DNA from: Bacteroidales bacterium
GTDB lineage: Bacteria; Bacteroidota; Bacteroidia; Bacteroidales; TTA-H9
NCBI GenBank assembly: GCA_030656615.1
Contig: JAUSOY010000063.1
Coordinates: 1 to 64,000 of the forward strand
DNA length: 64,000 nucleotides
Direction of reading: 5' to 3'
This document shows, in pieces, positions 31,159 to 50,722 of this stretch. A program made the translations under genes and the position numbers. The notes below the pieces were generated by a model. It had not been told where the DNA came from. It did no database searches and worked only from the letters and a program-made list of their open reading frames with translations. Position 1 is the stretch's first letter. Each line of letters starts with the position of its first letter.

Positions 31159-34100
31159 ATGACACCCTCCCCCATGTTGAAAAACTTCTTTCGTTCTACG
31201 CTGATATCCACCATATTGTTATTAACAATATCAACAAAAGCACAGGACACATGGTTACAAAAGACCGACCTTGTTGGTAACAGCCGCAAGGGTGCTATTG
31301 GTTTTGAAATGAATAGCAAGGCTTATGTAGGCACAGGTTTTGACGGTACCTACAGAAAAGATTTCTGGGAATACGACCCCATAAATGATACCTGGACTCA
31401 AATGGCTGATCTCAGCGGAGCAGGACGCGCCTATGCCGTGGGTTTTACAGCTTCAGGAAAAGGATATATTTCGACCGGTTATACCGGCGGTTTTCTGGCC
31501 GACGTTTGGGAATGGGATCCTATCAGCAATACCTGGACACAAAAAAGCAATTTTACAGGAGGTGCCCGTCAGGGTGCTTTTGCCATGAATATCGCCGGGA
31601 AGGCATATATCACCACAGGATTTGACGGAAGTTACAAAAAAGACATCTGGGAATATGCGCCACTGACGGATACATGGATACAAAAAGCGATGTACCCGGG
31701 AACCGCCCGTATTTATGCCACTGGTTTCGTTATCGGAGGAAAAGGATATGTTGGTAGTGGATACGATGCTACTTACCGAAAAGATTTTTATGTTTACGAT
31801 CAGGTGAACAATACCTGGAGTGCTATTGCCGATCTAACGGGAAATATTCGTGGCGGTGCTATCGGATTTACCGTGAGTGGAAATGGATATGTTGGCCTTG
31901 GCGACGATGGTGTTAATCTTCGAAAAGATTTATGGGAATATAATCCAACGGTGAATATTTGGTCAAGAAAATCGGATTTACCCGGTTTGGCACGCGAACA
32001 TGCTGTAGCCTTTACCATTGGAACACAGGCATATATTGTCACAGGATCGGATAATGGAACAGGATATTACAAAGACTTATGGCAGTGGAATAACAATTAC
32101 TGTAATCTTTCCATAATTGCCGCAAAAACGAACATCACTTGCAATGCGGCAAATAATGGGGCATTAGACGTTAGTATAAGTGGTGGAACCGCACCGCTTA
32201 CCTATTCATGGTCAAATGGAGCCACATCCGAAGATTTAACAGGATTGGCACCGGGTGAATACACCCTAAATGTTAGTGATGTGAATGCATGTGCTACTCA
32301 GGCTGTATTCCGTTTCAGTCAGCCCCGTGCTGTACAATTTGGCCGTGATAGCAGTGGCTTCAGTCTTATACGCAGAGGTGGCGGAGTTGGCAATGATGTT
32401 GGAAAAACCGTCTTAAGCGATGCTTCGGGCAATATTTACGTTGCAGGAACATTTTCAGGAACGGCCAGTTTCGGCAGCAGTAACCTGACCAGTATTGGCG
32501 GAAAGGATATTTTTATCGCCAAGTATAATAATCTCGGAAATCTTCAGTGGATACAACAAATTGGTGGTACCATTGATGAAGAGGTTGCTGGTTTGGCCAT
32601 GGATGCTCAGGGGAATATTTATATGACCGGAGCCTTCAGAATTCTTGCCTTTTTCGGTACTCAAATGATTAACAGTATTGGTGAAGCTGACGTATTTCTT
32701 GTAAAATTTAACAACTCAGGTGTTATCCAGTGGGTACAAACCGGAGGCAGTTCTTTTAGCGATTTTGGAAACGCTATCCATTGTGACGCCGCTGGAAACA
32801 CAAGCATTACCGGAATTTTTCAAGGAATGGCTACTTTTCAGGGTCAGAATCTGGTAAGTAATGGTGGTGATGACATTTTCGTAGCACGATACAATACCTA
32901 CGGAGTTTTACAGTGGATAAGGCAAGCTGGCGGATCTTCACCGGATGCCGGAACTTCCATTCATAATTCAGTAAATGGGGATATTTACGTTAGCGGAACC
33001 TTCCAACAAACCGCTGTTTTTGGAGTCAGCAATCTGATAAGTCTGGGCGATGACGATATTTTCCTGGCTCGTTACGATAGATACGGCAATTTATTATTCG
33101 CACAACAATCAGGCGGTACAGGAAACGACAAACCGAATGCCATGACCGGAGATGCAGCCGGAAATATATATCTTGCCGGTCATCTCGAAGGCAGTGCCAG
33201 TATTGGAGGAAATGCACTGGTAAGTAACGGAGGAAAAGACGCCTTTATAGCGAAACTTAATCCAACCGGAACTGCCATTTATGCCTTAAAGGCTGGTGGT
33301 ACAGGGGATGATGCCGCTCTTGGTCTTCACCTGAATGGACGTGGACACGTTGTACTTAGCGGATCCTTTAACAACACGGCATCCTTTGGAACTCAGAACA
33401 TTGTCAGTGCAGGTGGAACAGACCTTTTTATTGCCCGAGTGGATGAAGCCGGTGCTTTCCGACATGCTTTCCGAAGTGGGGGAGTAGGAAATGATGTAGC
33501 AAGCAGTGTTCATACCGATTTACAAAACAATATTTTCATTACTGGTAGTTTCAGCAATTCGTTTAACCCGGGAACCGGATTATTAACCAGTGCCGGAGGC
33601 TCTGATATGTTATTTGCCCGTTTCAGGGAGTACAGTGTTTATAAGGCTCCGTTGATTACACAAGTTACCTGTCAGGGTGGTGCCGATGGCTCAATTCAGA
33701 CATGGGTTGCCGGTGGAACTCCCGATTACACCTTTTTATGGTCAAGCGGAGCCACTACCCAAAATATCACAGGAATAGGCGCAGGTTCATTTCAATATAC
33801 GGCCACTGATCAGTTGGGTTGTACAAAAGACACTACTTTTATCATCACTTCTCTTTACAACGATCCGACCGCCCCGGTTTCTGCATCCATTGATCGGAAT
33901 AATTTCTGCGCTAATGATGCTGGACTTATCACGCTCACCGCTGTTGGCGGAACCGGTGACAGCCTGAAATGGTACACTGGTGCTTGCGGAAGTACCTTCG
34001 TTGGAGCTGGTACTGTTTTAGTTATTCCTTCACCGGATGTTACTACCACATATTTTGCCCGTTGGGAAAATCCTTGCGGCCAAACTACCTGTGTAGATGT

Positions 34101-37100
34101 TATTGCTACAGTTATTCCGTTGCCAGAAGCCCCATTAAGCGTAAGTTCTAGTGCCACAACCATTTGTGCCGGTACTGGCTCTATTACACTTACAGCCACC
34201 GGAGGCTCCGGACAAATTTTACGCTGGTATTCAGGAAGTTGTGGCGGAACATTATCGGGAGCAGGTAATCCTATCACCATTCCTGCTCCAGCAACTTCGA
34301 CAACTTATTTTGCCCGCTGGGAAAATTCATGCGGAGTGTCCAGCTGTGCTTCCGTTAGCATTACCGTAAATCCTCTACCACAAAAAGTAACTTCAATTAC
34401 GGTTGATACCAATAATTTTTGTTATAATTTCCCGGGTACCATTACCCTGACCGCCGTGGGTGGATCAGGAAGCACGCTTAAATGGTCAGCAGGAAATTGT
34501 CAGGGGACCGTTCTTGGAACAGGGCCATCCATTGTAACAGACGCTCCTTCTGTCACGACCAAATATTATGCCTGGTGGGAAAATTCATGCGGGCCTTCAC
34601 TTTGTGACTCAATTACCATCAATGTGTTATTACCTCCCACTCCGCCTCTTTCGGCAAGTGTTAATACCCCGGCGTATTGTCTTGGAACGGTCAATACCAT
34701 CACCTTAACCGCTACCGGAGGTTCAGGAACCACATTGAAATGGTACAAAGGATATTGTGGAAGTCCCCAGTTGGTTGGTACAGGTACAACTTTAACCATA
34801 CCAGCTCCAAGCAGCAATACGATGTATTATGCACGTTGGGAAACGACTTGCGGATATACAGTTTGTGTAAATACGGGGGTAACAATTCATCCACTTCCTA
34901 CTGCATCTTTCACAGGTTTAGGAGGAAGCTATTGTATTAATGCTACTCCGGTAACTCTAACCGGAAATTATCAGCCTTCCGGTACATTCTCAGGAAATCC
35001 GGGCGTAATTGACAATCTGAACGGTACGGCAACTTTCAATCCCGCACTTGCCGGAGCTGGTGGCCCTTATACAGTAACTTACAGTTATACAGACCCTAAT
35101 GGCTGCTCATCTTCTGCTTCACAATCAGTTACGGTTAGACCTCTTCCTTTCGTAAATTTTGCCGGATTGGCCGCACAGTATTGTGTAAATGCCAACCCGA
35201 TCAGTCTCACAGGAAATCAAGCTCCTTACGGTGCTTTCAACGGATCGGGCATTACATCCAGTTCAAATGGCGTGGGGGTTTTCAATCCTTCGGTAGCAGG
35301 TGTTGGTGGTCCTCATAGCATAACCTATAGTTTTACTGATATTTACGGTTGTTCAAAGGATACCACAAAAACGACTATGGTTAATGCGTTACCTACCGTA
35401 AGTATTGCCGGTCTTGGAACAACCTACTGCATAAATACTCCTCCGGTTACTATTATTGGCAGCCCCGCCACAAATGGATTTTTCGGTGGCCCGGGAATTA
35501 CCAATATTGCCCCAGGACAGGCTGTATTTGATCCTGCTATGGCTGGATTAGGTGGTCCCTATCAAATTACATATTCGAATACCGATGTAAACGGATGTTC
35601 CAATATTGCTGCGGTGGGCGTAACCGTATTTGATATTCCAAGCCTTAACTTTACCGGATTGCAATCCAGTTATTGTATGAATGCTCTGTCATCAACACTT
35701 ATTGGGAATATGGCACCCGGAGGTACGTTCAGTGGTCCTGGCATTACACCCAACACCAATGGTACAGCCATTTTTAATCCATCAACAGCAGGTGCAGGAA
35801 CCCATACAATCACGTACAGCTACACTGACCCCAACGGTTGCGGAAATACTTTTACAAAAACCACAACCATATTACCCATTCCAACGGTAGATTTTACAGG
35901 ATTAAACACAATTACCTGCCTAAATGCCAATACGGTTTTACTTACCGGTAATCAGGCACCTTTTGGATCATTCACAGGTCCCGGAATTTCAAATCTTGCC
36001 AATGGAACCGCAACTTTCAATCCGGTTTCTGCCGGAGTGGGTGGACCATTTAATATTACCTATACTTATACAGCCTTAAACGGATGTACGAACAGCATAG
36101 TAAAACAGACAACGGTTCCAGCCTTACCCACCCTCAATTTTACTGGCTTAAATCTCTCATATTGTATAAATTCGACGGCCGTTACCCTAACGGGTAATCA
36201 AGCTCCCCAAGGAACTTTTACCGGTCCTGGAATCACTGATAATGCGAATGGAACTGCCCAATTTAATCCAACCATGGCAGGCATTGGTACACACACCATT
36301 ACTTATACGTATACAGACGTAAACGGATGTACCAACACAAAAACAAAAACCACCACGGTCAATTCCTTACCATTACCCACAATACTTGGATTATTACCAG
36401 CATATTGTGTCAATGGAAGCACTGATACCATCACAGGAAGTTTTTATCCATTAGGAACCTTCACCGGTCCCGGTATTACGGATTTAGGAATCGGTATGGC
36501 CATTTTTGATCCTGCTGTAGCAGGAGTTGGTGGACCGTATGACATTATTTATGAGTATATCGATTTTAATGGTTGTACCAATGATACCACATATCAGGTA
36601 ACAGTTAATGCAGCCCCCTCGGTTGATTTTAATCCTTTCCTGCCGGAGTATTGCATTGATGCAGTGGCAGTTCTCATTGCCGGAAATCAGGCACCGAATG
36701 GAAGTTTTACCGGACCCGGAATCTCGGATCTGGGAAATGGAACAGCCATGTTCGATCCGGCTGTTGCAGGTGCTGGCATCAAATCAGTTACTTATTCCTA
36801 TACTGACCTGAACGGTTGTACCAAAGACACAACGAAGACTACTACAGTGATTGCCTTACCGGTTAAGCCCTCACTTATCACCGTTGATTCCAATAATTAC
36901 TGTGCCAATACGGTTGTTGATATTATGCTTGTAGCCTTTGGAGGTGCTGGAGATACACTCGTTTGGTTCGAGGGTAGCTGTGGAGGAACGCTTATCGGTG
37001 GCGGAAATTATCTCACCATCCCAGCCCCAAATGACACAATAACCTATTACGCCCGTTGGGAAAATCAGTGTGGAGAGTCCGAATGCGACAGCATCAAGAT

Positions 37101-40100
37101 TTTTGTAATTCCTACCCCTTTGGCTCCAACAGTCACCTTGGTTGATACCAATAATTTCTGTGCCGGAACTGTTAATATCATCACATTGACTACAGAAGGA
37201 GGAATTGGCTCTACATTAAAATGGTTTAAAAACGACTGCAGTGGTCAATATGTAGGACAGGGTCAGCCTCTGATCATTACTGCCCCTATGGATACCACAA
37301 TTTATTATGCCCGTTGGGAAAACGAATGTGGCGTATCAGAATGTGACTCTGTTATCGTTAACGTAACTCCACAACCCATTATCCCGCTTACCGTTTCTGT
37401 AGATACCTCCGGTTTCTGCATTGGTACAATAAGCGACATTACCCTTACAGCCACTGGCGGACTTGGCGATACGCTGCAATGGTACGCTTATGCATGTGGC
37501 GATTCATTGGTCGGCACTGGTACGCCCTTAACCATTACCGCTCCTGACACAACCACCGTTTATTATGCTCGCTGGAAAAATAAATGCGATAATACCAGTT
37601 GCTTATCCGTGGAAGTAGTGGTGGTGCCAGAACCTGAAAAAGTTGATAGCATCAGTGTAGACCAAAACGATTTTTGTGCTGGTGTGGTAGGAATAATACA
37701 ATTAAGCGCCAGTGGCGGAAGTGGAACAACACTCCAATGGTTTAAAAATTCCTGTGGAGGAACTCTTATTGGAACAGGAACACCGATACTAACGAATGCA
37801 CCGAGTGATACCGCCACATATTACGCCCGGTGGATTAATATGTGTGGAGAAAGCGAATGCGACAGTATTGTCATCAATGTACGTCCACAAGCACGACCTC
37901 TTGACTCCTTGTCTGTTGACACCAACTTTTTCTGTATCGCATACAACGGATTAATTGCATTGACGGCTCATGGCATTTTTGAAACAGGAGATACCGTGCA
38001 ATGGTTCGAAGGTGGATGCGGCACAACGCTGGTTGGAACCGGAATAAATTTAAGTTTACCGGCTCCCGATACAACGACCCGTTACTTTGCCCGAAATGTA
38101 AATTCATGCGGTGAATCGGTTTGTTTACAGATTGATATTGTTGTTAATGAACCAGTTAGTCCCGTAATGCTAAGTCTGGATACCCTCTGGGTTTGTCAGG
38201 GCTTCACAAATCCCATTACGCTAACTGCTATTGGAGGTTCCGGAGATCAGGTTGAATGGTATACTGACAGTTGCGGAGGAACACCGGTAGGAAGTGGAAT
38301 AAGCATAAGCATTCCCGCACCAGATACCACCACTACCTATTTCGCCCGCTGGGAAAACTATTGTGGTGAATCCGAATGCGACTCCGTTAAGCTTTATATT
38401 CTGGAAATCCCAACTGCACCGGATACGATTTCGGTTGATACTAATTATTACTGTGCTAATTCAGTAAATTTCATAACCTTAACAGCGATTGGAGGCTATG
38501 GAGATACTATTTCTTCCTATGGTGAAACGGTTCGTTGGTTCAGAAAAAACTGCAATGGAACGATGATAGGAACCGGAGTAAATCTTACCATTCCTGCACC
38601 GGTTGCTTCTACCTGGTATTTTGCCCGTTGGGAAAACGTTTGTGGTGTTTCAGAATGTGATTCATTCCGCGTAATGGTACATACTGCAAAACCGGTAGAC
38701 TCCATCACTTCCGATACCAATAATTTCTGTATTGGTACCGTTACCAATCTTACACTCACGGCTTACGGAGGTTATGGCGATTTAATTCGATGGGCTAAAA
38801 TAGTCCAAGGCGATACCATTAATATTGGTATCGTAAATCCCATAAACATTCTGGCTCCGGATACCACAACCATTTATCTCGCACGTATGGAAACCTATTG
38901 CGGTAATTCCGCATGGCGCTCGATAAAAATCAAAGTAAACACTCCTGTTATTCCGGATGCCTTATTTGCGAATCAGGATACGATATGCTCTGATTTTGCA
39001 GGGCCACTGGTTCTTTGGGGCATTGGTGGAAATGGAGATTCGTTACGCTGGTATGCCAATGGTTGTCAGACAGAAATTATAGCCACCGGTGACACGGTAA
39101 GTATTACGCCTCCAACAGTTACTACAACTTATTATGCCAATTATGAGAATATTTGCGGCGTAACGGATTGTAAAAACATTACAATTCGCGTAACTACAGC
39201 ACCTGTATTTACAGCGGGTACGAATGATTCGGTGTGTGAAGGATTAAACTATACCTTAAAAAATGCCAGTGTTATTAACGCGGATAGTGTTTTATGGACA
39301 AGCAGTAATAGCAATGGTAGCTTCAGCAATCCACGAATTATCAAACCCGTTTATAATCCTGGTAATATAAATATCAGCACAAAAACCACAGATCATCTCA
39401 TTCTTTGGGTGTTCGGAAAATATCCTTGCGGAGTTTACTCTGACACTTTGAGTCTTGTAATCAATCCAAAACCAGAGGTCAGCCTGACTCCACCATTACC
39501 GGCAATTTGTCAGGATTCGAGTATTATGCTAACGGCCAGTGGCGGAGCTGATTACAAATGGATTCCACCACAGTCACTGGATACCGCACGTGGTCCGGTT
39601 GTTATAGCCAGTCCGGCTGCAACCATTGATTACGAGATAGTTGGCATATCATCTTCGGGATGTCTTGACACTTTGGAATTTACACTAACAGTGAAGCCAA
39701 CGCCCAAACTCGATTTAGGCGATGACCTCTACCTCTTCTCCTGTGCACCGATTACGCTCGATGCTGGCGGTGGAACAGGTTCAGAAAGCTATGAGTGGCA
39801 GGATGGAAGTCAGCTCAGATATTTCCGTGCAATCGAAAACGGAACATATTGGGTAAAGGTTTTCAATGATGGTTGTGCCATTATTGACACAATTACTATA
39901 GAACTTTGCCAGGGCTATTTATATCTTCCCACAGCATTTTCGCCCAATGGTGACGGAATGAATGAAATATTTAAACCAATCACCAGTGATCCTTCTGTTA
40001 AATTCCATATGTATATTTATGATAATCATGGACAACTGGTCTTCGAAACGGATAACGTTGATGATGGCTGGGATGGAACCCACAAAGGCCAGAAATGCCC

Positions 40101-40200
40101 CGCTGCTTTATATGTTTGGATGATACGGTATCAGGGAAATAGCAATACAGCACCTGGTGCTGAATATATCGAACAAGGAAAAGTTTTCCTTATCAGATAG
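31159..40200 (+). CDS. Giant T9SS type B surface protein: two beta-propellers on an Ig-like stalk
   Basis: 3013 residues. Order: signal peptide (1-29); six kelch units (about 35-310); SprB-like repeat (about 314-390); seven SBBP units (about 395-825, each with a VxGTFxxTAxFG core); second SprB-like repeat (828-900); four Ig-like A repeats of about 86 residues (905-1249), each usually with four Cys and an ARWENxCG motif; eight B repeats of about 82 residues (1250-1904: FTGL, YCIN, FTGPGI, NGTAxFNP, TDxNGC); nine more A repeats (1905-2682); two to three further Ig/PKD-like domains; and a CHU_C gliding-motility C-terminal domain (about 2920-3013, FSPNGDGMNE, ending GKVFLIR). Likely a cell-surface adhesin or motility-related filament exported by T9SS. 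Confidence 0.9.
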   Translation: MTPSPMLKNFFRSTLISTILLLTISTKAQDTWLQKTDLVGNSRKGAIGFEMNSKAYVGTGFDGTYRKDFWEYDPINDTWTQMADLSGAGRAYAVGFTASGKGYISTGYTGGFLADVWEWDPISNTWTQKSNFTGGARQGAFAMNIAGKAYITTGFDGSYKKDIWEYAPLTDTWIQKAMYPGTARIYATGFVIGGKGYVGSGYDATYRKDFYVYDQVNNTWSAIADLTGNIRGGAIGFTVSGNGYVGLGDDGVNLRKDLWEYNPTVNIWSRKSDLPGLAREHAVAFTIGTQAYIVTGSDNGTGYYKDLWQWNNNYCNLSIIAAKTNITCNAANNGALDVSISGGTAPLTYSWSNGATSEDLTGLAPGEYTLNVSDVNACATQAVFRFSQPRAVQFGRDSSGFSLIRRGGGVGNDVGKTVLSDASGNIYVAGTFSGTASFGSSNLTSIGGKDIFIAKYNNLGNLQWIQQIGGTIDEEVAGLAMDAQGNIYMTGAFRILAFFGTQMINSIGEADVFLVKFNNSGVIQWVQTGGSSFSDFGNAIHCDAAGNTSITGIFQGMATFQGQNLVSNGGDDIFVARYNTYGVLQWIRQAGGSSPDAGTSIHNSVNGDIYVSGTFQQTAVFGVSNLISLGDDDIFLARYDRYGNLLFAQQSGGTGNDKPNAMTGDAAGNIYLAGHLEGSASIGGNALVSNGGKDAFIAKLNPTGTAIYALKAGGTGDDAALGLHLNGRGHVVLSGSFNNTASFGTQNIVSAGGTDLFIARVDEAGAFRHAFRSGGVGNDVASSVHTDLQNNIFITGSFSNSFNPGTGLLTSAGGSDMLFARFREYSVYKAPLITQVTCQGGADGSIQTWVAGGTPDYTFLWSSGATTQNITGIGAGSFQYTATDQLGCTKDTTFIITSLYNDPTAPVSASIDRNNFCANDAGLITLTAVGGTGDSLKWYTGACGSTFVGAGTVLVIPSPDVTTTYFARWENPCGQTTCVDVIATVIPLPEAPLSVSSSATTICAGTGSITLTATGGSGQILRWYSGSCGGTLSGAGNPITIPAPATSTTYFARWENSCGVSSCASVSITVNPLPQKVTSITVDTNNFCYNFPGTITLTAVGGSGSTLKWSAGNCQGTVLGTGPSIVTDAPSVTTKYYAWWENSCGPSLCDSITINVLLPPTPPLSASVNTPAYCLGTVNTITLTATGGSGTTLKWYKGYCGSPQLVGTGTTLTIPAPSSNTMYYARWETTCGYTVCVNTGVTIHPLPTASFTGLGGSYCINATPVTLTGNYQPSGTFSGNPGVIDNLNGTATFNPALAGAGGPYTVTYSYTDPNGCSSSASQSVTVRPLPFVNFAGLAAQYCVNANPISLTGNQAPYGAFNGSGITSSSNGVGVFNPSVAGVGGPHSITYSFTDIYGCSKDTTKTTMVNALPTVSIAGLGTTYCINTPPVTIIGSPATNGFFGGPGITNIAPGQAVFDPAMAGLGGPYQITYSNTDVNGCSNIAAVGVTVFDIPSLNFTGLQSSYCMNALSSTLIGNMAPGGTFSGPGITPNTNGTAIFNPSTAGAGTHTITYSYTDPNGCGNTFTKTTTILPIPTVDFTGLNTITCLNANTVLLTGNQAPFGSFTGPGISNLANGTATFNPVSAGVGGPFNITYTYTALNGCTNSIVKQTTVPALPTLNFTGLNLSYCINSTAVTLTGNQAPQGTFTGPGITDNANGTAQFNPTMAGIGTHTITYTYTDVNGCTNTKTKTTTVNSLPLPTILGLLPAYCVNGSTDTITGSFYPLGTFTGPGITDLGIGMAIFDPAVAGVGGPYDIIYEYIDFNGCTNDTTYQVTVNAAPSVDFNPFLPEYCIDAVAVLIAGNQAPNGSFTGPGISDLGNGTAMFDPAVAGAGIKSVTYSYTDLNGCTKDTTKTTTVIALPVKPSLITVDSNNYCANTVVDIMLVAFGGAGDTLVWFEGSCGGTLIGGGNYLTIPAPNDTITYYARWENQCGESECDSIKIFVIPTPLAPTVTLVDTNNFCAGTVNIITLTTEGGIGSTLKWFKNDCSGQYVGQGQPLIITAPMDTTIYYARWENECGVSECDSVIVNVTPQPIIPLTVSVDTSGFCIGTISDITLTATGGLGDTLQWYAYACGDSLVGTGTPLTITAPDTTTVYYARWKNKCDNTSCLSVEVVVVPEPEKVDSISVDQNDFCAGVVGIIQLSASGGSGTTLQWFKNSCGGTLIGTGTPILTNAPSDTATYYARWINMCGESECDSIVINVRPQARPLDSLSVDTNFFCIAYNGLIALTAHGIFETGDTVQWFEGGCGTTLVGTGINLSLPAPDTTTRYFARNVNSCGESVCLQIDIVVNEPVSPVMLSLDTLWVCQGFTNPITLTAIGGSGDQVEWYTDSCGGTPVGSGISISIPAPDTTTTYFARWENYCGESECDSVKLYILEIPTAPDTISVDTNYYCANSVNFITLTAIGGYGDTISSYGETVRWFRKNCNGTMIGTGVNLTIPAPVASTWYFARWENVCGVSECDSFRVMVHTAKPVDSITSDTNNFCIGTVTNLTLTAYGGYGDLIRWAKIVQGDTINIGIVNPINILAPDTTTIYLARMETYCGNSAWRSIKIKVNTPVIPDALFANQDTICSDFAGPLVLWGIGGNGDSLRWYANGCQTEIIATGDTVSITPPTVTTTYYANYENICGVTDCKNITIRVTTAPVFTAGTNDSVCEGLNYTLKNASVINADSVLWTSSNSNGSFSNPRIIKPVYNPGNINISTKTTDHLILWVFGKYPCGVYSDTLSLVINPKPEVSLTPPLPAICQDSSIMLTASGGADYKWIPPQSLDTARGPVVIASPAATIDYEIVGISSSGCLDTLEFTLTVKPTPKLDLGDDLYLFSCAPITLDAGGGTGSESYEWQDGSQLRYFRAIENGTYWVKVFNDGCAIIDTITIELCQGYLYLPTAFSPNGDGMNEIFKPITSDPSVKFHMYIYDNHGQLVFETDNVDDGWDGTHKGQKCPAALYVWMIRYQGNSNTAPGAEYIEQGKVFLIR
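33871..34905 (+). repeat. Family A Ig-like repeats 1-4 of the giant protein
   Basis: Four in-frame coding repeats of about 259 bases: the unit has an NNFC-type first cysteine, ITLTAxGGSG, a central CGG, PAPxTTTYYARWEN-CG and a last Cys. Resembles Ig-like domains associated with CHU_C proteins. Sequence identity between units is moderate, so these are old duplications. Confidence 0.85.
34906..36870 (+). repeat. Family B Ig-like repeats 1-8 of the giant protein
   Basis: Eight coding repeats of about 246 bases with two conserved cysteines each (YCIN and NGC), GTFTGPGI and NGTAxFNPxxAG. They interrupt the family A array. Unit boundaries lie at the short LPxx linkers. Confidence 0.85.
36871..39203 (+). 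repeat. Family A Ig-like repeats 5-13 of the giant protein
   Basis: Nine more family A units. Unit 11 carries an insert (SSYGE) before the central strand; unit 12 has lost two of the four cysteines (AKIVQGD and GNSAWRS replace the usual segments); unit 13 is the most diverged. Confidence 0.85.
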
Positions 40201-40338: not shown

Positions 40339-41664
40339 ATGACACAACCGCCCCGCAATATACAACCCCGGATTCATGATTTAATGGGTGAACTACCCAC
40401 AGCAGCTAACCTTCCTGCTAATTTTCGTTTTCTTTCCCCTGAAAAAATTTCCCTTCCAAATAGCATTCCTTTATATGTTGTACAAACGGGTTCATATGAT
40501 TTTTGTCAGATTGAAATTGGTATAAAAGCCGGTACATGGTATCAGAATAAAAAGCTACAAGCCGGTTTTACAAATATGATGCTGATGAAAGGTTGTAAAG
40601 GAAAAACGGAATCCGAAATCTCTGAATTTATTGATTATCGGGGAGCCTATCTTATTCCTTCTGTTGATCAGGATTTCGCATCCCTCAGCTTATACTCCCT
40701 CACCCGACACTTAAAAGAGCTTTTACCACTAATGTCGGATATTCTACAACAACCTGATTTCCCAGAATCGGAATTTACAATTGAACGAAGTAAGGCTAAA
40801 CAACGCTTTCAGATCGATTTGGGAAAAGTTGATTTCCTCGCGCGCCAGGAAATGAGCCACATGGTTTATGGCGATAATCATCCTTATGGACAGATAGCTT
40901 TACCTGTGGATTATGAGCAAATTCAAGCCTCAGACCTCCATGATTTTTATAAATATCATTACCACAATCGCATTTCTTATATTCTTGCATCCGGAAATAT
41001 TAGTGATGACGTTTTAAACCTAATCACGCAAACTTTTGGCGGATCCGGCATTGAAAATCAAAACCCAATTATAGAACCGAATAAATCATTCAACAATGGT
41101 TCCCCCTATTTCAGGCATATTCCAAAAGCAGGCGCTAGTCAAACAGCAATACGTTTTGGTAAAAGAGCCCCTACAGCTCAAAATCCGGATTATTCGGGCC
41201 TTAAAATTCTGAACGTCATTCTGGGTGGATATTTTGGTTCCAGGCTGATGATGAACATACGGGAAGACAAGGGTCTTACCTATGGAATAGGTTCTGCCTA
41301 TCAGCCGATGCAACACGATGGAATGCTTATCATTGCTGCGGAAGTGAAAGCCGAAAACACTGCCCTTGCCATACTGGAAACCAAAAATGAATTACAGAAA
41401 CTTTGTGAGAATTTAATAAGCGAAGAAGAACTATATCTGGTTAAAAACTTCATGGCTGGTGATTTCTACCGTAGTATTGACGGACCTTCAGCTATTGCTA
41501 GTCGTATACGACAAATAATCCGGTTTGATCTTCCAAGCGACCACTTTATTAACCACTTACAAAACCTGTATCACATAACTCCCAAAGATATTCTTAACCT
41601 TTCACAAAAATATTTAAAAAGTGAAAGTTTCTATAGTATTGCTGTTGGCGAATACCAAGATTAA
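40339..41664 (+). CDS. M16-family protein without the zinc motif (non-catalytic subunit type)
   Basis: 441 residues, no signal peptide. It aligns with M16B (insulinase-like) half-molecules, but the HxxEH zinc motif is replaced: G76, N79 and M80 stand where His, Glu and His belong (AGFTNMMLMKG). The later substrate-side motif REDKGLTYGIGSAYQ, with its Arg and Tyr, is intact. This is the pattern of the R/Y subunit of two-subunit M16B peptidases, which pairs with a separate zinc-bearing subunit. No such partner gene lies in this window. Own promoter; probably cytoplasmic. Confidence 0.8.
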   Translation: MTQPPRNIQPRIHDLMGELPTAANLPANFRFLSPEKISLPNSIPLYVVQTGSYDFCQIEIGIKAGTWYQNKKLQAGFTNMMLMKGCKGKTESEISEFIDYRGAYLIPSVDQDFASLSLYSLTRHLKELLPLMSDILQQPDFPESEFTIERSKAKQRFQIDLGKVDFLARQEMSHMVYGDNHPYGQIALPVDYEQIQASDLHDFYKYHYHNRISYILASGNISDDVLNLITQTFGGSGIENQNPIIEPNKSFNNGSPYFRHIPKAGASQTAIRFGKRAPTAQNPDYSGLKILNVILGGYFGSRLMMNIREDKGLTYGIGSAYQPMQHDGMLIIAAEVKAENTALAILETKNELQKLCENLISEEELYLVKNFMAGDFYRSIDGPSAIASRIRQIIRFDLPSDHFINHLQNLYHITPKDILNLSQKYLKSESFYSIAVGEYQD

Positions 41665-41684: not shown

Positions 41685-43697
41685 ATGAAGACTGCGAAAA
41701 TCTTTCTGTTATTATTGCTGATGCCGCTTGTGGGATTCTGTCAAATGAAGCCTGTGAAATTGACCTGCGTACTCATCAATGATGACGGAAGCGTCCTGCT
41801 AAACTGGTACCCATATTATAGCAGCCCTGATTTTGCACGTTATGAAGTATATTATTCAAACAATCTTACGACACCGTTTTTAAAAGTTGCCGAAATAACA
41901 AACCTGAGTACAGTATCATACCTGCATCCGATTGGCGTAAGTGGCGGTCAGGCGGCGCACTATTTTGTAAAAACAGCTGCTTTTTCCGGACAAGAAATTA
42001 ACTCTGACACCTTATCGGCCATGTTGCTTCAGGCCAGTGTACAACAACAACAGCGAAACATCCTGTCTTGGAATGCTATAAAAACACCTTTGCCACCCAC
42101 AGCAAGTCATAATTATCAGATTTTCAGAAAATACGGAAACCTGAGTTGGGATCTTATCGACTCTACACCAAACCTTACGTATGTTGATAGCATCTACTCC
42201 TGTTCTGTCGTTAATTATAGGATTGTGCTAATGGATTCGGCATGCCAGTCATCGTCAACAACAGCCATAGTACCGCAAGACATTCTTCAACCCGCCACCC
42301 CCCGTTTAGACAGCGTAAGTGTAAACTCGTTAGGAAACGTTGAATTAGGGTGGTCGGTTAGCAATGCTCCCGATTTGGCGGGTTATTATATTTTTAATTT
42401 TTTCAATGGGATTTGGGATACATTAGCTATTATAAACAACACATCAACTCACTTCTACACCGATTTACTGGCAAATCCACTAACAACATCCGCTCAATAC
42501 GCCGTAGCAGCATACGACCATTGTGGTAACACCAGTGGAGATCTTGGTATTCCTCAGTCTCAAAAAACAATACTTTTAAATTTGCCACAACCCGATGTAT
42601 GTTTGGATAAAATTGAACTCTCATGGAGTGCCTATATTAATTTGCCAGGCCAAGTAAGTAACTATACCGTATTTATCAGAGAAAATAACGACAATTTTAT
42701 TCCTGTCAGCATTGTAGCGGATACTGTTTATAACTATACTCATACCGGACTGGAACATAATATTGTTTATTCCTATTATATTCGGGCGAATTCAAAAAAC
42801 GGAACACATTCATCCTCTTCGCCCATTCAAAGTCTCAAAGTCATAAAACCCGGCTTGCCCGACTATTTTTACATCGCCAATGCAACCGTAGAAAAAAATC
42901 GCAGCATCCGGCTTAAACTTTTTCCAGATTCAACTGCCAATATTAGCCATTATGAGCTGATGAGAGCCCAGAAAGCTGAAGGACCATATATAAGTATCAA
43001 ATCATTTGAGCCACCCGCCAAACAAATAACTGTTTACGATTCTTCAGTAAATGTCGGCCGCTTTGCCTATTATTACCAGTTTTACGTCTACGATAGTTGT
43101 GGTAACCTTTCAACATTTTCTAACCTATTCAATACCATACTTCTTAAAAATTCTGAATCAGAAACCTCCATGTTTGAATGGAATATCACCAAAGGATTTG
43201 ATGCCGAAAACGGTGCTTTTGAGGTTTATAGGCTTGAAGGTGATTCATTAATCCTTCTGGCCATTCTTCCTCCTGACAATTTATCCTTTACCGATCCGGA
43301 TTTTGTTCCGGCTAATTTTGAAGAAACACGCTATTATCAGGTAGCCGGTGTTGAAAATCCCGGAAACAAATATGGTTTTAAAGAAAAAACCTGGTCAAAT
43401 ATCCTCGCATTTGAACCCGAATTTCAGTTCTATCTGCCCAATGCATTTACACCAACCCACGAATCCAATAAAATATTCAAGCCCATTGCATTAGCATATA
43501 CTGAAAAGGATTATTACATGGCTATTTTTAATCGATTTGGCCAACGAATTTTTGAAACAACCGACTTCCATGAAGGTTGGAACGGAAAACATAACGGCAG
43601 ATTGGTGAATAGCGGCCCATACGCTTATTACATCAGGGTACTATCCAAATCAGGCAAATATCACATTAAAACAGGACTTATTATATTACTTGATTAA
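41685..43697 (+). CDS. T9SS type B secreted protein with fibronectin-III-like modules
   Basis: 670 residues. Signal peptide (1-19, LMPLVGFCQ), then several fibronectin-type-III-like modules of about 95 residues (INDDGSVLLNWYPY, VNSLGNVELGWSV, DKIELSWSAY and similar strand pairs), and a C-terminal gliding-motility (CHU_C) sorting domain: FYLPNAFTPT, IFNRFGQRIFET, GWNGKHNG, ending GLIILLD. It starts 20 bases after the M16 gene, but the functions look unrelated. Probably a cell-surface binding or structural protein; ligand unknown. Confidence 0.85.
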   Translation: MKTAKIFLLLLLMPLVGFCQMKPVKLTCVLINDDGSVLLNWYPYYSSPDFARYEVYYSNNLTTPFLKVAEITNLSTVSYLHPIGVSGGQAAHYFVKTAAFSGQEINSDTLSAMLLQASVQQQQRNILSWNAIKTPLPPTASHNYQIFRKYGNLSWDLIDSTPNLTYVDSIYSCSVVNYRIVLMDSACQSSSTTAIVPQDILQPATPRLDSVSVNSLGNVELGWSVSNAPDLAGYYIFNFFNGIWDTLAIINNTSTHFYTDLLANPLTTSAQYAVAAYDHCGNTSGDLGIPQSQKTILLNLPQPDVCLDKIELSWSAYINLPGQVSNYTVFIRENNDNFIPVSIVADTVYNYTHTGLEHNIVYSYYIRANSKNGTHSSSSPIQSLKVIKPGLPDYFYIANATVEKNRSIRLKLFPDSTANISHYELMRAQKAEGPYISIKSFEPPAKQITVYDSSVNVGRFAYYYQFYVYDSCGNLSTFSNLFNTILLKNSESETSMFEWNITKGFDAENGAFEVYRLEGDSLILLAILPPDNLSFTDPDFVPANFEETRYYQVAGVENPGNKYGFKEKTWSNILAFEPEFQFYLPNAFTPTHESNKIFKPIALAYTEKDYYMAIFNRFGQRIFETTDFHEGWNGKHNGRLVNSGPYAYYIRVLSKSGKYHIKTGLIILLD

Positions 43698-45276: not shown

Positions 45277-47328
45277 ATGAAAGCAGCATTTTTAACCCAT
45301 TGTATTGTAAACCGCAAAGCATTAATGCTTGGCGTTCTTTTAGTAGTTACAAGCCTTCTTTCGGCTCAGGATATTAACCAACAAACCCTCTTGAATATCG
45401 AAGGCGAAAAGATTACTGCCGGAGAATTTCTTAACATCTACAAAAAGAACAATATACAAACCGACGTTATTGATAAGAAGTCACTGGAGGAATATCTTGA
45501 CCTCTTCATCAATTTTAAACTTAAAGTAAAAGATGCCGAGAATAACGGACTTGATACCGTTAAGGCGCTTCGTGAAGAACTGGCAGGATATCGCCGTCAG
45601 TTGGCACAGCCTTATTTCGTGGATGATGAAGTTGTTTCCGGTTTATTAAAAGAAGCCTATGACCGCATGCACTGGGATTTACGTGCATGTCATTTACTTA
45701 TTCGTTGTGAAGCAAACGCTAAACCAGCCGATACCCTTGCTGCCTACAAAAAAATTCATGGAATTCGTGAACGCATTTCCAAAGGAGAGACCTTTGGTGC
45801 CATGGCTGAGCAGTTTTCCGACGATCCCTCTGCCCGTGACCGTGAGGCCAATAATCAACATCCTTTCATGAAAGGCAATCAGGGCGATTTAGGATATTTC
45901 ACCGCATTCAATATGGTTTATCCATTCGAAACTGCTGCATACAAATTAAAAGTCGGTGAAGTTTCCATGCCGGTTCGCACACAATTCGGATATCATCTCA
46001 TTAAATTAATTAACAAATGCCCGGCACTGGGTAAAGTGCAGGCAGCTCATATTTATTTCCAGATTCCTCCCAGAAGTACAAGGGAAGATAGTCTTCGGAT
46101 TGAAGAGCATGTTGATTCGGTTTATCAAAAAATTATTGCCGGTGCCAGTTATACTGACATGGTTAAACAATACTCTGACGATAAAGGATCTGCCACCCGT
46201 GACGGAGTTCTCCCCTGGTTTACATCCAATAAACTGGTACCTTCCTTCATTGATGCCATTTACCCTTTAACCGATTCCGGCCAGGTAGCCAAACCGGTTC
46301 TTACTACGTATGGCTGGCATATTATCCGTCTGGTTGAGCGCAAACCAATTGGCAACTTTGATGAACTTAAAACAGAATTAAAGCAGCAAATTGTTCGTGA
46401 TCAACGTTACGACAAAAGCAAAACAAGCGTTATCAGCAAATTAAAAGACGAATACTCCTTTACAGAGAATGTAAAACTCCTGAAAAAGATAAACAGTACC
46501 GTAAATGACAGCATTTTCGAAGGAAAATGGAAAGCCTCAGCAGCATCCGATCTTGGAACAAAAAAATTATGGTCACTGGCAGGAAAAGATTACACGGTAA
46601 GTGATTTTGCCCAATATCTTGAATCAACACAGAAAAAGGAAAAACCTGAAGCAACCGAGGTATACGTAATGCAGAAATTCAAAGCCATGACCGATGAAAA
46701 AATTATGGCTTATGAAGACAGTATGCTCGAGAAAAAATATCCTGATTTCAGAATGATTATGCAGGAATATCATGACGGCATCCTCCTATTTGAAATGACC
46801 CAGAAAAAAGTTTGGGAAAAAGCAGTTGCTGATACAACAGGCCTTGAAGCTTTTTACGAAACTGTCAAAAATAATTATCTCTGGGACGATCGGAAAGACG
46901 TCAGCATGATAACTATCGATAATCTATTAAACGAAAAAGCGGCTACTAAAATGGTAGAAAAACTGAATAAAACGATGGCCGGAGCAAATAATTCTGTGTC
47001 AGAACTTCAGGCCAATTTATCCGCCGATACATCCTTACTTATTAACATCAGTCGCGATAAATTAATTAAGTCGGAAAACGAAATGGCTGACGGGCTCAGC
47101 AAAGCAGGAAGTTTTGCTCAGAAGACCCTGAAAGGCGAAAACGGAAAAATCAGTCTGACGTATGTGTACCTTCACTCCCTTATTCCTTCAGAACCAAAGG
47201 CACTGAATGAAATAAAGGGTCTTGTTACCGCCGAATATCAGAATTATCTTGAAAGTCAATGGATTGATGAGCTTAAAAAAATGTATAAAGTTCAGGTAGA
47301 TAAAAATGTCTTCGACAAACTTAAATAA
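45277..47328 (+). CDS. Periplasmic peptidyl-prolyl isomerase with two parvulin domains
   Basis: 683 residues. Signal peptide ends VVTSLLSAQ (about 31). A SurA-N-like helical region (40-130) is followed by two parvulin/rotamase domains (about 133-250: RACHLLIRC, FGAMAEQFSDDPSA, FGYHLIKL; about 252-355: VQAAHIYFQI, YTDMVKQYSDD, YGWHIIRL) and a 300-residue helical C-terminal part of unknown role. It assists folding of outer-membrane or secreted proteins. One of three consecutive PPIase-type genes; starts 35 bases after guaB. In Bacteroidota such clusters are common, perhaps reflecting the load of barrels and T9SS cargo. Confidence 0.88.
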   Translation: MKAAFLTHCIVNRKALMLGVLLVVTSLLSAQDINQQTLLNIEGEKITAGEFLNIYKKNNIQTDVIDKKSLEEYLDLFINFKLKVKDAENNGLDTVKALREELAGYRRQLAQPYFVDDEVVSGLLKEAYDRMHWDLRACHLLIRCEANAKPADTLAAYKKIHGIRERISKGETFGAMAEQFSDDPSARDREANNQHPFMKGNQGDLGYFTAFNMVYPFETAAYKLKVGEVSMPVRTQFGYHLIKLINKCPALGKVQAAHIYFQIPPRSTREDSLRIEEHVDSVYQKIIAGASYTDMVKQYSDDKGSATRDGVLPWFTSNKLVPSFIDAIYPLTDSGQVAKPVLTTYGWHIIRLVERKPIGNFDELKTELKQQIVRDQRYDKSKTSVISKLKDEYSFTENVKLLKKINSTVNDSIFEGKWKASAASDLGTKKLWSLAGKDYTVSDFAQYLESTQKKEKPEATEVYVMQKFKAMTDEKIMAYEDSMLEKKYPDFRMIMQEYHDGILLFEMTQKKVWEKAVADTTGLEAFYETVKNNYLWDDRKDVSMITIDNLLNEKAATKMVEKLNKTMAGANNSVSELQANLSADTSLLINISRDKLIKSENEMADGLSKAGSFAQKTLKGENGKISLTYVYLHSLIPSEPKALNEIKGLVTAEYQNYLESQWIDELKKMYKVQVDKNVFDKLK

Positions 47329-47348
47329 GAATTAGAACGTTAATATTA

Positions 47349-47380
47349 GTGCCTGGGGTAATTTCCCGGGCACTTCATTT
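47349..47380 (+). terminator. Intercistronic hairpin between two PPIase genes
   Basis: GTGCCTGGG pairs with CCCGGGCAC (one U-G) over a short loop (47349-47373), followed by a weak T-rich TTCATTTG. It may attenuate rather than stop transcription, since the next gene starts 16 bases later. Confidence 0.4.
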
Positions 47381-47388
47381 GTCAGGAT

Positions 47389-48252
47389 ATGGAAAAACTA
47401 AAAATTTGCTTTGTCATTTTACTCATCGCTACCATGGCAAGTTCTTGCTCGTGGTTTGACAGCAAACTTAGGCCTAATGAACGTATTCTGGCACGTGCCA
47501 ATAAAGATTATCTGTACGAATCGGCCATTACAGACCTCGTCCCACCGGGAACACCAACCGCGGATAGTACTGCCATGGTTAAAAGTTTTATCGAAAACTG
47601 GATTCGCGACAGACTCATCATTAACGAAGCTGAAAAAAACCTCGCCGACGACAAAAAGGATTTTAGTAAACAACTCGAGAATTATCGTAATTCCTTGCTG
47701 ACCTATTCTTTCGAAAACGACATCATAAATAAAAATCTTGATACGCTGATTACAGAGTCTGAAATTGAAAATTACTATGAGCAGAATAAAGATAATTTTA
47801 TTCTAAAAGACAATATCGTTCGGGCTGCATATGTAAAAATTCTGAAAGACTCTATTAAAGCAATTCGGACTGCCCGCAAATATCTGGAAGCCGATACCAT
47901 TCTCAGTTACGACCGTTTCGAGAAATTTTGTTTAAACCGAACACAAGGGTATCTTATCAGTTATACATCATGGTATCTCTTCCGCGATTTAATGAATCAG
48001 GTACCCATTGTAACGTATAACGAAGAAGCTTTTTTAAAAAACTCCAAGCTTGTTGAACAAGAAAGTGACATTTTTCTGTATATCATTCGCTTTTATAATT
48101 TTAAAGTCCGTGATGCCGTTTCACCTTTGGCATTCGAAAGACAAAATATCCGTGGTATCCTTCTAAATTTGCGTAAAGTTCAATTGATAAAAAAACACCG
48201 AGAAGATATTTTTACAAAAGCATTAAAAAACAAGAATTTCGAAATATATTAA
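47389..48252 (+). CDS. SurA/PpiC-related lipoprotein lacking a clear parvulin domain
   Basis: 287 residues with a lipoprotein signal (ATMASSCSW, Cys20). Residues about 60-140 match the SurA/PpiC N-terminal chaperone region (FIENWIRDRLIINEAEKN, then TESEIENYYEQNKDNF). The usual rotamase signatures (xxHIL, GGDLG, GYHIIxL) are missing, so it is probably a chaperone without isomerase activity. It lies between two parvulin proteins, 11 bases before the SurA-like gene, and should act with them in the periplasm. Envelope-anchored by its lipid. Confidence 0.75.
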   Translation: MEKLKICFVILLIATMASSCSWFDSKLRPNERILARANKDYLYESAITDLVPPGTPTADSTAMVKSFIENWIRDRLIINEAEKNLADDKKDFSKQLENYRNSLLTYSFENDIINKNLDTLITESEIENYYEQNKDNFILKDNIVRAAYVKILKDSIKAIRTARKYLEADTILSYDRFEKFCLNRTQGYLISYTSWYLFRDLMNQVPIVTYNEEAFLKNSKLVEQESDIFLYIIRFYNFKVRDAVSPLAFERQNIRGILLNLRKVQLIKKHREDIFTKALKNKNFEIY

Positions 48253-48262
48253 TTCCCAATCA

Positions 48263-49615
48263 ATGAAAAAGGTACTATTTTTCCTTCTTTCCCTAGCATT
48301 TTCGATTACAATATCTGCACAGGACGAGCAATCAACACCCAAAATGGTGGATGAAGTTATCGCAGTAGTAGGAAGCAAAATCATTTTACATTCTGATATT
48401 GAAAATCAATACATTCAGTACCGTATGCAAGGATCGATTCGTGGAAGTGCACAAGAAACCAAATGTGCAATACTTGAAGGTCTGTTATATTCAAAACTCC
48501 TAATCAATCAGGCCGAAGTTGATAGTGTTGTTGTTGGTGATAAACAAGTAGATACTGAAGTTGATCGGCGTGTGCGATATTTCATTCAACAAATAGGTTC
48601 CAAAGAAAAGTTGGAAGACTATTATAAAAAACCTTTATTTCAGATTAAAGAAGATTTGAAGGAAATTATTGCCGACCAGATGCGGGTAGAAATGGTTCAG
48701 AACAACATAACAAAAACCGTCACCATAACACCTTCCGAAGTAAGAGCATTTTACAAAGCACAACCATCCGATAGTATTCCCATGATTAATACGGAATATG
48801 TTATAGGTCAAATTGTTAAAAAACCAAAAGTCAGTCTGGCTCAAGAAATTGAAGTCAAAGAAAAACTTCGTGCCCTGCGCAGACGTGTACTTGATGGAGA
48901 AAGTTTCAATACCATGGCAATCCTTTATTCAGAAGACCCGGGTTCTGCAGCAAAAGGCGGGGAAGTGGGATTATATGGCCGAGGTGAATTATATCCCGAA
49001 TTCGAAGCCGTTGCATTCAAATTAAAAGAAGGTGAAATATCCGACATCGTTCAATCCAAAGCAGGATTCCACATTATTCAACTTATTGAACGCAGAGGCG
49101 AGTACGTTAATACCCGTCATATTCTGATTACTCCGAAAGTTTCACCGGATGAGCTTGCGAAATCGGCCACAATGCTTGATAGCATCTACAATCTTATTCA
49201 GGATGGAAGCATTACCTATGATGATGCTGTACTCAAATTTTCTGATGATCCCGGCAAAAATAATGGCGGATTACTAATTAATCAAGCGACTGGTACCATT
49301 CGTTTTTCTCATGATCAGCTCGATCCCAAAGCGCTTTATGTAGTCGATAAGCTTGAAGCCGGCAAAATTTCAAAACCCATTCCATATAAATCGGACGAAG
49401 GACAGGATGCTTATCGCATTCTCTATCTCAAGGAAAAAACAAAACCTCACCGTGCCAACCTTCGTGAGGATTATGACAAAATTCAGACCTGGGCTCAGGA
49501 ACACAAAAAGGATAAGGTTATTGATACCTGGGTGAATGAACGAATTAATAATACCTATATCCGGATACAGGACGAATTTAAATCATGTACATTTAAATTG
49601 GGCTGGAGTAAATAA
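48263..49615 (+). CDS. SurA-like periplasmic chaperone / PPIase
   Basis: 450 residues. Signal peptide (1-19, AFSITISAQ). SurA N-terminal helical domain (about 28-165, DEVIAVVGSKIILHSDIENQ). First parvulin domain about 175-275 (YVIGQIVKKP, YSEDPGSAAKGGEVGLYGRG, AGFHIIQLIER); second, more diverged, about 280-385 (NTRHILITPK, FSDDPGKNNGGLL). This is the standard SurA layout of Bacteroidota. It escorts outer-membrane proteins and T9SS components across the periplasm. The next gene, moxR-like, starts 20 bases after its stop. Confidence 0.92.
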   Translation: MKKVLFFLLSLAFSITISAQDEQSTPKMVDEVIAVVGSKIILHSDIENQYIQYRMQGSIRGSAQETKCAILEGLLYSKLLINQAEVDSVVVGDKQVDTEVDRRVRYFIQQIGSKEKLEDYYKKPLFQIKEDLKEIIADQMRVEMVQNNITKTVTITPSEVRAFYKAQPSDSIPMINTEYVIGQIVKKPKVSLAQEIEVKEKLRALRRRVLDGESFNTMAILYSEDPGSAAKGGEVGLYGRGELYPEFEAVAFKLKEGEISDIVQSKAGFHIIQLIERRGEYVNTRHILITPKVSPDELAKSATMLDSIYNLIQDGSITYDDAVLKFSDDPGKNNGGLLINQATGTIRFSHDQLDPKALYVVDKLEAGKISKPIPYKSDEGQDAYRILYLKEKTKPHRANLREDYDKIQTWAQEHKKDKVIDTWVNERINNTYIRIQDEFKSCTFKLGWSK

Positions 49616-49634
49616 ATCCCTGAAAGCACCGAAT

Positions 49635-50603
49635 ATGCAATATAAAAATGACGCTGAGGCAGTGAATGCACTCGCTGAGGTTCATATCAAGTTAAAAAAG
49701 GAGATTTCCAAAGTTATTATCGGGCAGGATGCTACCGTAGAAAATGTGCTTATTGCCATTTTTAGCAAGGGGCATGGATTGTTGGTTGGCGTCCCAGGAC
49801 TTGCCAAAACATTACTTATCAATACGATAAGCCAGGTTCTGGGTTTAAAATACAATCGGATACAGTTTACTCCAGACTTAATGCCATCTGATATCATAGG
49901 CACTGAAATTCTGGATGAAAATCGCAAATTCCGATTTATCCACGGACCTGTATTTGCAAATATTATTCTGGCGGATGAAATAAACCGCACCCCTCCTAAA
50001 ACACAAAGTGCACTTCTGGAAGCCATGCAGGAGAAATCGGTTACAGTAGCAGGAGTTCGACACGCATTAGAAGAGCCTTTCTTCGTTTTGGCAACCCAAA
50101 ACCCCATCGAACAAGAAGGCACATATCCACTTCCTGAAGCACAGCTCGACCGGTTTATGTTTAATATTTGGCTCGATTATCCATCGGCCAGCGAAGAGCT
50201 TGACATTATTAAAGCAACAACCGGAACGCATGTTCCTGAAGTAAATGTTATTCTCAAGCGCGACGAAATTCTGTTTTTCCAAAATTTAATCCGCAAAATC
50301 CCCGTTACGGATCACGTGGCAGAATATGCTGTTAAATTAGCGCGGATGACACGTCCGGGTGGAAAAGATGCACATCCTTGGGCAAATGATTACCTGACTT
50401 GGGGTGCAGGCCCCCGGGCAAGTCAGTATTTAATTCTGGGGGCCAAATGTCACGCAGCCCTTCGCGGTAAATATTCGCCCGACTTTGAAGATGTTGATGC
50501 AATTGCCTCTTCTGTTTTGAGGCATCGTATCGTTAAAAACTACAAGGCCGAAGCCGAAGGCATTACCATTGATGCACTAATTCAGAAATTTACGGTTCGC
50601 TAA
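49635..50603 (+). CDS. MoxR-family AAA+ ATPase
   Basis: 322 residues from the ATG at 49635; an in-frame ATG at 49536 lies inside the SurA gene and adds 33 unconserved residues. Walker A GVPGLAKT, Walker B ILADEINRTPPK, sensor ATQNPIEQEGTYPLPEAQLDRF and the C-terminal lid GPRASQYLILGAK are all present. MoxR ATPases act as chaperones for metal- or complex-assembly, usually with DUF58/VWA partners. Those are not encoded next to it here: the SurA cluster precedes and an S46 peptidase follows. Cytoplasmic. Confidence 0.92.
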   Translation: MQYKNDAEAVNALAEVHIKLKKEISKVIIGQDATVENVLIAIFSKGHGLLVGVPGLAKTLLINTISQVLGLKYNRIQFTPDLMPSDIIGTEILDENRKFRFIHGPVFANIILADEINRTPPKTQSALLEAMQEKSVTVAGVRHALEEPFFVLATQNPIEQEGTYPLPEAQLDRFMFNIWLDYPSASEELDIIKATTGTHVPEVNVILKRDEILFFQNLIRKIPVTDHVAEYAVKLARMTRPGGKDAHPWANDYLTWGAGPRASQYLILGAKCHAALRGKYSPDFEDVDAIASSVLRHRIVKNYKAEAEGITIDALIQKFTVR

Positions 50604-50722
50604 ACGCATTTATTGTAATAATTGCATATGTTCCGGATATCTTGATTTATCGGGTATTTGGAACATTTTTGTAAATTGTGCTTCCTTTTAGTTTTTATTT
50701 CTCAAAACACATATTAAAGCCA

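Follow-up and report, generated by a model that had tools for sequence, protein, structure and literature searches.

Here we consider a stretch of 64,000 nucleotides from a Bacteroidales bacterium (assembly GCA_030656615.1, contig JAUSOY010000063.1, positions 1 to 64,000; hereafter the window) and, within it, a single gene whose product is predicted to be a giant surface protein carrying a long array of two kinds of repeat. The gene is one open frame on the + strand (31159-40200) that encodes 3013 amino acids. A CHU_C sorting domain (39925-40149, +; PF13585 and TIGR04131) lies at its C-terminal end, and scores of 56.7 bits for CHU_C (cut-off 27) and 49.8 bits for TIGR04131 (cut-off 35) predict that the protein is a type B cargo of the type IX secretion system (T9SS). 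At the other end lies a predicted head, a kelch-type beta-propeller with approximate limits (31303-32088, +), recognized by Kelch models and by matches to kelch-type structures (8pjw, E 1e-26; Kelch-like protein 17, E 4e-16). It is followed, all on the + strand, by a SprB repeat (32122-32226; PF13573), an SBBP-type beta-propeller (32383-33663, right limit set by eye; PF06739 over its cut-off and CylK structures at E 2e-27) and a second, SprB-like repeat (33670-33852), whose limits are set by eye as the Pfam scan reported two SprB stretches with coordinates for the first only. The array comes next, as A1-A4 (33859-34884), B1-B8 (34885-36852) and A5-A13 (36853-39201), and a tail segment that is, by eye, probably immunoglobulin (Ig)-like (39202-39924) connects it to the sorting domain.

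The initial annotation had claimed that thirteen A repeats with four cysteines each are interrupted, exactly at an inter-repeat linker, by eight B repeats with two. Delimiting the units by cysteine spacing and with hidden Markov models (HMMs) built from the units themselves bears out the A4-B8-A9 array: the 21 units of the gene are contiguous without gaps, and both switches between A and B fall in inter-repeat linkers. In the window gene the A units measure 85-92 amino acids and the B units 81-83. Two cysteines are present in eight of eight B units, as claimed, and four in 12 of the 13 A units, A12 having two. The A units are assigned to Ig_7 (PF19081), which scores 332.2 bits over the protein (cut-off 27.3) in 12 stretches; its E value of 3.3e-101 means that this assignment is not due to chance. 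The B block, taken alone, exceeds the cut-off for five Pfam models, four of them cadherin or Big-type Ig models and the fifth ChitinaseA_N, with Cadherin_5 as the best (42.2 bits, cut-off 26.5).

The cysteines of the A units vary in a coupled manner. Among the 195 A units of 15 family genes (see below), Cys 1 and Cys 3 are present in every unit, and Cys 2 and Cys 4 are jointly present in 170, jointly absent in 25 and never found singly. This pattern of co-loss implies that A has two disulfides and B has one, with a Cys 1-Cys 3 bond common to both kinds of unit and a Cys 2-Cys 4 bond in A only; the cysteine pair of the B units is placed near the sites of A Cys 1 and Cys 3. The suggestion of the initial annotation that the two families may differ in disulfide-based stiffness is indirectly supported by this difference. 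Outside the family, 92 distinct A units were compared (102 less 5 that belong to other genes of family genomes and 5 repeated sequences). Four cysteines occur in 73 of these, nine lack Cys 2 and Cys 4 together, and ten lack Cys 3 alone. All ten come from planctomycete loci (L142-L148, L150 and L151), where they do not fit the proposed Cys 1-Cys 3 pair. These loci belong to metagenome-assembled genomes (MAGs) of Planctomycetota; their frames are 820-1049 amino acids long with just two A units detected by the HMM, and the A pairs stop 53-67 amino acids before the end of the frame, with Cys 3 absent in one unit per pair.

Both kinds of unit are predicted to adopt Ig-like folds. For A3-A4-B1-B2 and B7-B8-A5-A6, AlphaFold2 gives models with mean predicted local distance difference test (pLDDT) values of 93.9 and 95.0 and predicted template modelling (pTM) scores of 0.64 and 0.67, respectively, which makes the folds of the domains firm and the angles between them not. 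A profile of B units alone matches PDB 7b5h, the All3314 protein, with an E value of 2e-08, and B-like domains thus occur in another kind of protein; All3314 is presumably cyanobacterial in origin.

A match to the gene is present in nine of the nine genomes examined of the family to which the window's genome belongs. In all 14 complete arrays, which come from eight of these genomes and comprise eight short and six long forms of the gene, the units are arranged as AAAABBBBBBBBAAAAAAAAA, with array lengths of 1775-1812 amino acids. A further gene, in G008, is split over two contig ends as AAAABBB and BBBBBAAAAAAAAA, consistent with the same order. No long form was seen in G002 (76% complete), G004 (95%) or G008 (65%). 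In a tree of whole arrays (short search; 5.8 changes per column in total), the short and long forms occupy the two sides of a branch that is fully supported by the Shimodaira-Hasegawa-like approximate likelihood ratio test (SH-aLRT). The six genomes that carry both forms have an identical branching order on the two sides and hence the duplication that produced the two forms probably predates the split of these genera.

The individual units retain their position across genes. Comparing the 315 units of 15 genes, units at the same position are on average 51.1% (A) and 52.3% (B) identical, while the values between positions are 40.2% and 45.0%. The best cross-gene match lies at the same position in 1511 of 2730 comparisons for A (chance 1 in 13) and in 792 of 1680 for B (chance 1 in 8). 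These same-position matches indicate that the 4-8-9 layout is older than the duplication. Trees of all units from the 15 genes recover A3, A9, A11, A12 and B7 as pure and complete position clades; the A1 and B3 clades are also complete, each including one foreign row, A13 falls short of one row and A4 of two. Moreover, two features mark their positions independently of any tree: A11 carries an insert of about 7 residues (93-94 amino acids) and A12 has two cysteines, each in 15 of 15 genes. Within the window gene, amino-acid identity is 29-58% among A and 44-69% among B units and DNA identity is 42-62%, values which indicate that neither block is a recent expansion. The insertion and expansion of B raised in the initial annotation is, as a recent event, ruled out by the shared order, the same-position matches and the whole-array tree, since 4-8-9 is common to two paralogous groups older than the genera of the family. 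Its other proposal, the assembly of a mosaic stalk, fits the observations.

The two forms differ in their heads, the short form having the kelch head and the long form an array of Ig-like units. The short form of the window aligns with the long forms from about residue 300-334, near the first SprB repeat, with 38-42% identity in the propeller part; a blastp search with the preceding part of the window protein gave no match in the long forms. Three complete long-form heads have 16 units and the one in the window's own genome has 20; two others, which run off their contigs, have 13 and 9. Pfam Ig_3 is found in both of the long-form heads that were scanned. A third kind of head in the window's genome (contig C5) has fn3 and CHB_HEX-type domains. 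Its first 1408 residues gave only four short, weak matches (residues 284-377) in the other eight genomes, and the matches of the C5 protein there are otherwise confined to its B-like part (residues 1409-1640). Beneath the differing heads the proteins would share one chassis, in which an SprB repeat, the SBBP propeller and another SprB repeat are followed by stalk, tail and CHU_C. The tail, from the end of the array to the end of the protein, measures 333-336 amino acids in the 13 of 13 genes whose frame reaches a stop; a first probe for a dockerin found none.

The window's genome may also record the transfer of an entire stalk. Contig C81 (6001 bases) holds a stalk and most of a tail. Two contigs overlap into it (C70 by 151 bases with 1 mismatch, C5 by 139 bases with none), and two others, C67 and C17, overlap out of it by exactly 141 bases each. 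Upstream of the overlap C70 and C5 have 30-52% DNA identity, and the identity of C67 and C17 drops to 68% across 470 bases. The simplest reading suggested by these overlaps is that two further loci with different heads share one near-identical 6-kb stalk, which was merged in assembly; the genome's own long-form paralogue would run from C70 through C81 into C67 or C17. Between C70 and C5 the propeller parts are just 44% identical in amino acids, and hence the stalk was probably copied, whole, onto the second gene after the two genes had diverged. Given that C81 is 64-70% identical to the long form of G006 across the array and the C70 propeller 67%, the long gene is the likelier source. The tail of C67 is closer to the same long form (57% versus 51%), which only suggests that C70 is the partner of C67. 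The same genome holds a further giant surface protein, in locus L038 on contig C74, where a frame of 5855 amino acids is weakly similar to the array and ends in CHU_C.

Collectively, these data lead us to propose that A4-B8-A9 serves as a fixed stalk, topped by exchangeable heads, in a family of giant surface proteins of T9SS type B. In this proposal, the order of the 21 domains would have existed before the two main paralogues separated, and both the number of units and the identity of each position would have been kept since. We consider this explanation as a whole, including the great age of the layout, to be probable. Several observations weigh against it. For positions A2, A5, A6, A10, B1, B2, B4, B5, B6 and B8 the trees of all units recover no complete clade, and in smaller trees with a fuller search A9 is broken in both and A3 and A11 in the one with an outgroup; as clades break in these more careful trees, single position clades should not be pressed. 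The shared stalk cassette rests on contig overlaps in one draft genome. In the 14 arrays the DNA of neighbouring repeats is on average 47-55% identical, with 63% for the closest single pair, and an array of twelve B units outside the family (B12) has kept its number in two congeneric genomes at 43% amino-acid identity. Neighbours this different are too dissimilar for easy slippage, so a constant number need not mean selection, and the B12 array shows that frozen arrays are not unique to the family.

These last two points also favor a different account of the constancy, namely that the repeats have become too dissimilar through drift to recombine and that the number of units is fixed for this reason only, without any selection on length. 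The low identity could by itself be enough to explain the constant number, and in the parts of PMC8201768 that bear on it, Periscope Proteins are most variable where the repeats are most alike. In the long form, however, the Ig-array head is similarly diverged (means of 51-56% between neighbors in four complete heads) and nevertheless has 16 units in three genes and 20 in one. Even here the case is divided, as the closest near pair (76%) occurs in the 20-unit head, which fits drift in part. Similar proteins elsewhere also differ in spacing, for example in the stretch that separates an A block from a B block (1307 versus 778 amino acids in one genus), which speaks against drift as the sole cause. 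We take this account as a serious contender while leaning slightly against it. An older event is invoked if an A array was already in place when B repeats were inserted and multiplied within it, an insertion that would have to predate the split of short and long forms. That both borders lie in linkers with A units on either side agrees with this course. So does L134, a Bacteroidales MAG locus outside the counted set, where 15 A units and no B were detected (nine, a gap of 90 residues and six); whether or not this array is orthologous to those of the family, it shows that long A arrays without B occur. Holding A1-A4 together on one side of a tree without an outgroup costs no likelihood (approximately unbiased test, p 0.54; 86 columns), a result compatible both with insertion and with the joining of separate arrays. 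With 22 outgroup units, p is 0.059 for an A1-A4 clade, 0.43 for A5-A13 and 0.19 for all family A units (86 columns); in this tree A1 is mixed among A units of other genomes and 6 of the 22 outgroup rows are on the wrong side. Neither history is rejected at 0.05 by the A-unit trees, and the deep order of the A units is settled by neither. Since B8 is found in all 14 complete family arrays, the uninterrupted state that an insertion presupposes was not seen within the family, and we regard this course of events as rather doubtful.

A third alternative concerns what the stalk does rather than how it arose. It might be a single strand within a filament of several chains, similar to the grappling hook that is known from Aureispira, a member of the Bacteroidota, with the number of domains setting the register between chains. 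GhpA fragments are the top PDB match for both four-domain models (Foldseek E 6.7e-13; VIA-align Z 13.2, with a root-mean-square deviation of 7.6 over 317 residues), GhpA is matched by the four-domain profile (E 6.7e-20) and by the whole window protein (E 6.7e-5, best at the CHU_C end), and positions such as A11 and A12 retain features of their own. Ig-like domains, however, match many proteins (Z of at least 2 in 979 of 982 aligned chains), the four-domain profile matches All3314 equally well (E 6.6e-20), and the A-only and B-only profiles give no GhpA match at 0.001. A filament of this kind is therefore improbable in our view. A bolder extension, distinctly improbable, combines it with the exchangeable chassis of 21 domains: copies would lie in register as in GhpA, with heads at equal height or joined in one fiber, and the stalks would be kept matched by copying of the 6-kb segment.

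How far constancy extends beyond the family was addressed with six pairs of genomes from shared genera or families, of which one (B12) compares cleanly. In one pair both genomes have two A and five B units, with a different distance between the A and the B units. In the pair G084/G187 (L181 versus L180), from one genus, one B-array frame of G084 corresponds to four separate frames in G187 at 87-97% identity; the four-frame state may reflect sequence errors or a gene that is broken. For the pair G093/G194 the alignment has two registers, and its counts of 21 and 9 are uninformative because the frames are unequal and the HMM may miss units. The two remaining pairs are too different to compare. 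Most of the measured arrays outside the family have a similar identity between neighbors and a few have a much higher one. One of the arrays is young, unlike that of the window: in L141, from a Phycisphaerales MAG, the neighbors among six A units have 84.6% DNA identity on average. A wider scan sampled the order, with at most two candidates scored per genome in 198 genomes, 106 of which had a match. The full 4-8-9 order was found in 12 loci of a 43-locus set and a partial one in a single locus, and all 13 are on contigs that equal in length family contigs already counted; it was not shown in the remaining 30, several of which end at contig ends. Likewise, 4-8-9 was not seen in 27 loci from other families, none longer than 5.6 kb, a size at which the full 5.3-kb array could hardly show.

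With respect to function, we infer that the stalk gives the propeller head a fixed reach. The protein would be exported by the T9SS, and its C-terminal domain would dock on a PorP/SprF-type protein. A search of the window's genome for SprA and PorP/SprF-type genes found one SprA (2677 bits) and three PorP/SprF-type genes over the cut-off, with a fourth under it. An Ig-like domain is about 4 nm long, and the stalk might hold the propeller head at a set distance of very roughly 80-90 nm, its middle being formed by one-disulfide domains between two-disulfide ends. According to PMC9143113, proteins with a type B C-terminal domain bind PorP-like proteins. Directly downstream of the stalk gene lies a gene for an M16-type peptidase (40339-41664), followed by that for a second, smaller predicted T9SS type B protein with fn3 and CHU_C domains (41685-43697, +). 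Farther on (45277-52882, +), two genes for PPIC-type rotamases, which may serve outer-membrane cargo, flank one without a Pfam match and are followed by genes for a MoxR-type ATPase and an S46 peptidase.

Repetitive bacterial stalks are noted for variation in length. Here order and number are constant through an old duplication and several genera, and it is the heads that change; the stalk has the appearance of a long-established standard part and not of a repeat that expanded recently. What sets the length of a stalk thereby becomes a testable question, with drift after divergence, a requirement for a certain reach and packing between chains as candidate answers. If a whole stalk was indeed copied from one gene to another with a different head, this would be a clean exchange of parts among surface proteins. 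In the open literature, no title was found that deals with this family or with a stalk of fixed 4-8-9 order.

Four known systems offer a comparison. The gliding adhesins of the SprB type with SprF, as portrayed in portions of PMC9143113 and PMC11205867, likewise have a type B C-terminal domain, SprB repeats and a large size. In contrast to them, no PorP/SprF-like gene was detected by Pfam among the ten genes neighboring the window gene, two of which match no family. GhpA (PDB 9flp and others; PMC13319060) resembles the family in being a very long surface protein with a CHU_C-like end and, perhaps, in the kind of its tandem Ig-like domains. It has 5898 residues and forms heptamers; the structure models made for the family are of single chains. 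HagA, RgpA and Kgp of Porphyromonas gingivalis, according to extracts of PMC5266723, also carry identical adhesin repeats behind differing fronts, and these are not resolved in assemblies; their modules are combined differently between genes and strains, whereas the order of the 21 domains is constant here. Finally, fibrillar adhesins and Periscope Proteins, as far as the relevant parts of PMC8201768 and PMC9704523 go, share the general plan of a surface anchor, a stalk of tandem folded domains and a distal head; PMC9210967 and PMC8286594 are further papers on such proteins. The stalks of Periscope Proteins vary in number and consist of highly similar repeats, whereas the stalk of this family is made of two domain types whose repeat DNA identity is about 50% (47-55%, and thus not high) and whose number is invariant, 14 of 14 arrays, in a comparison across genomes rather than strains.

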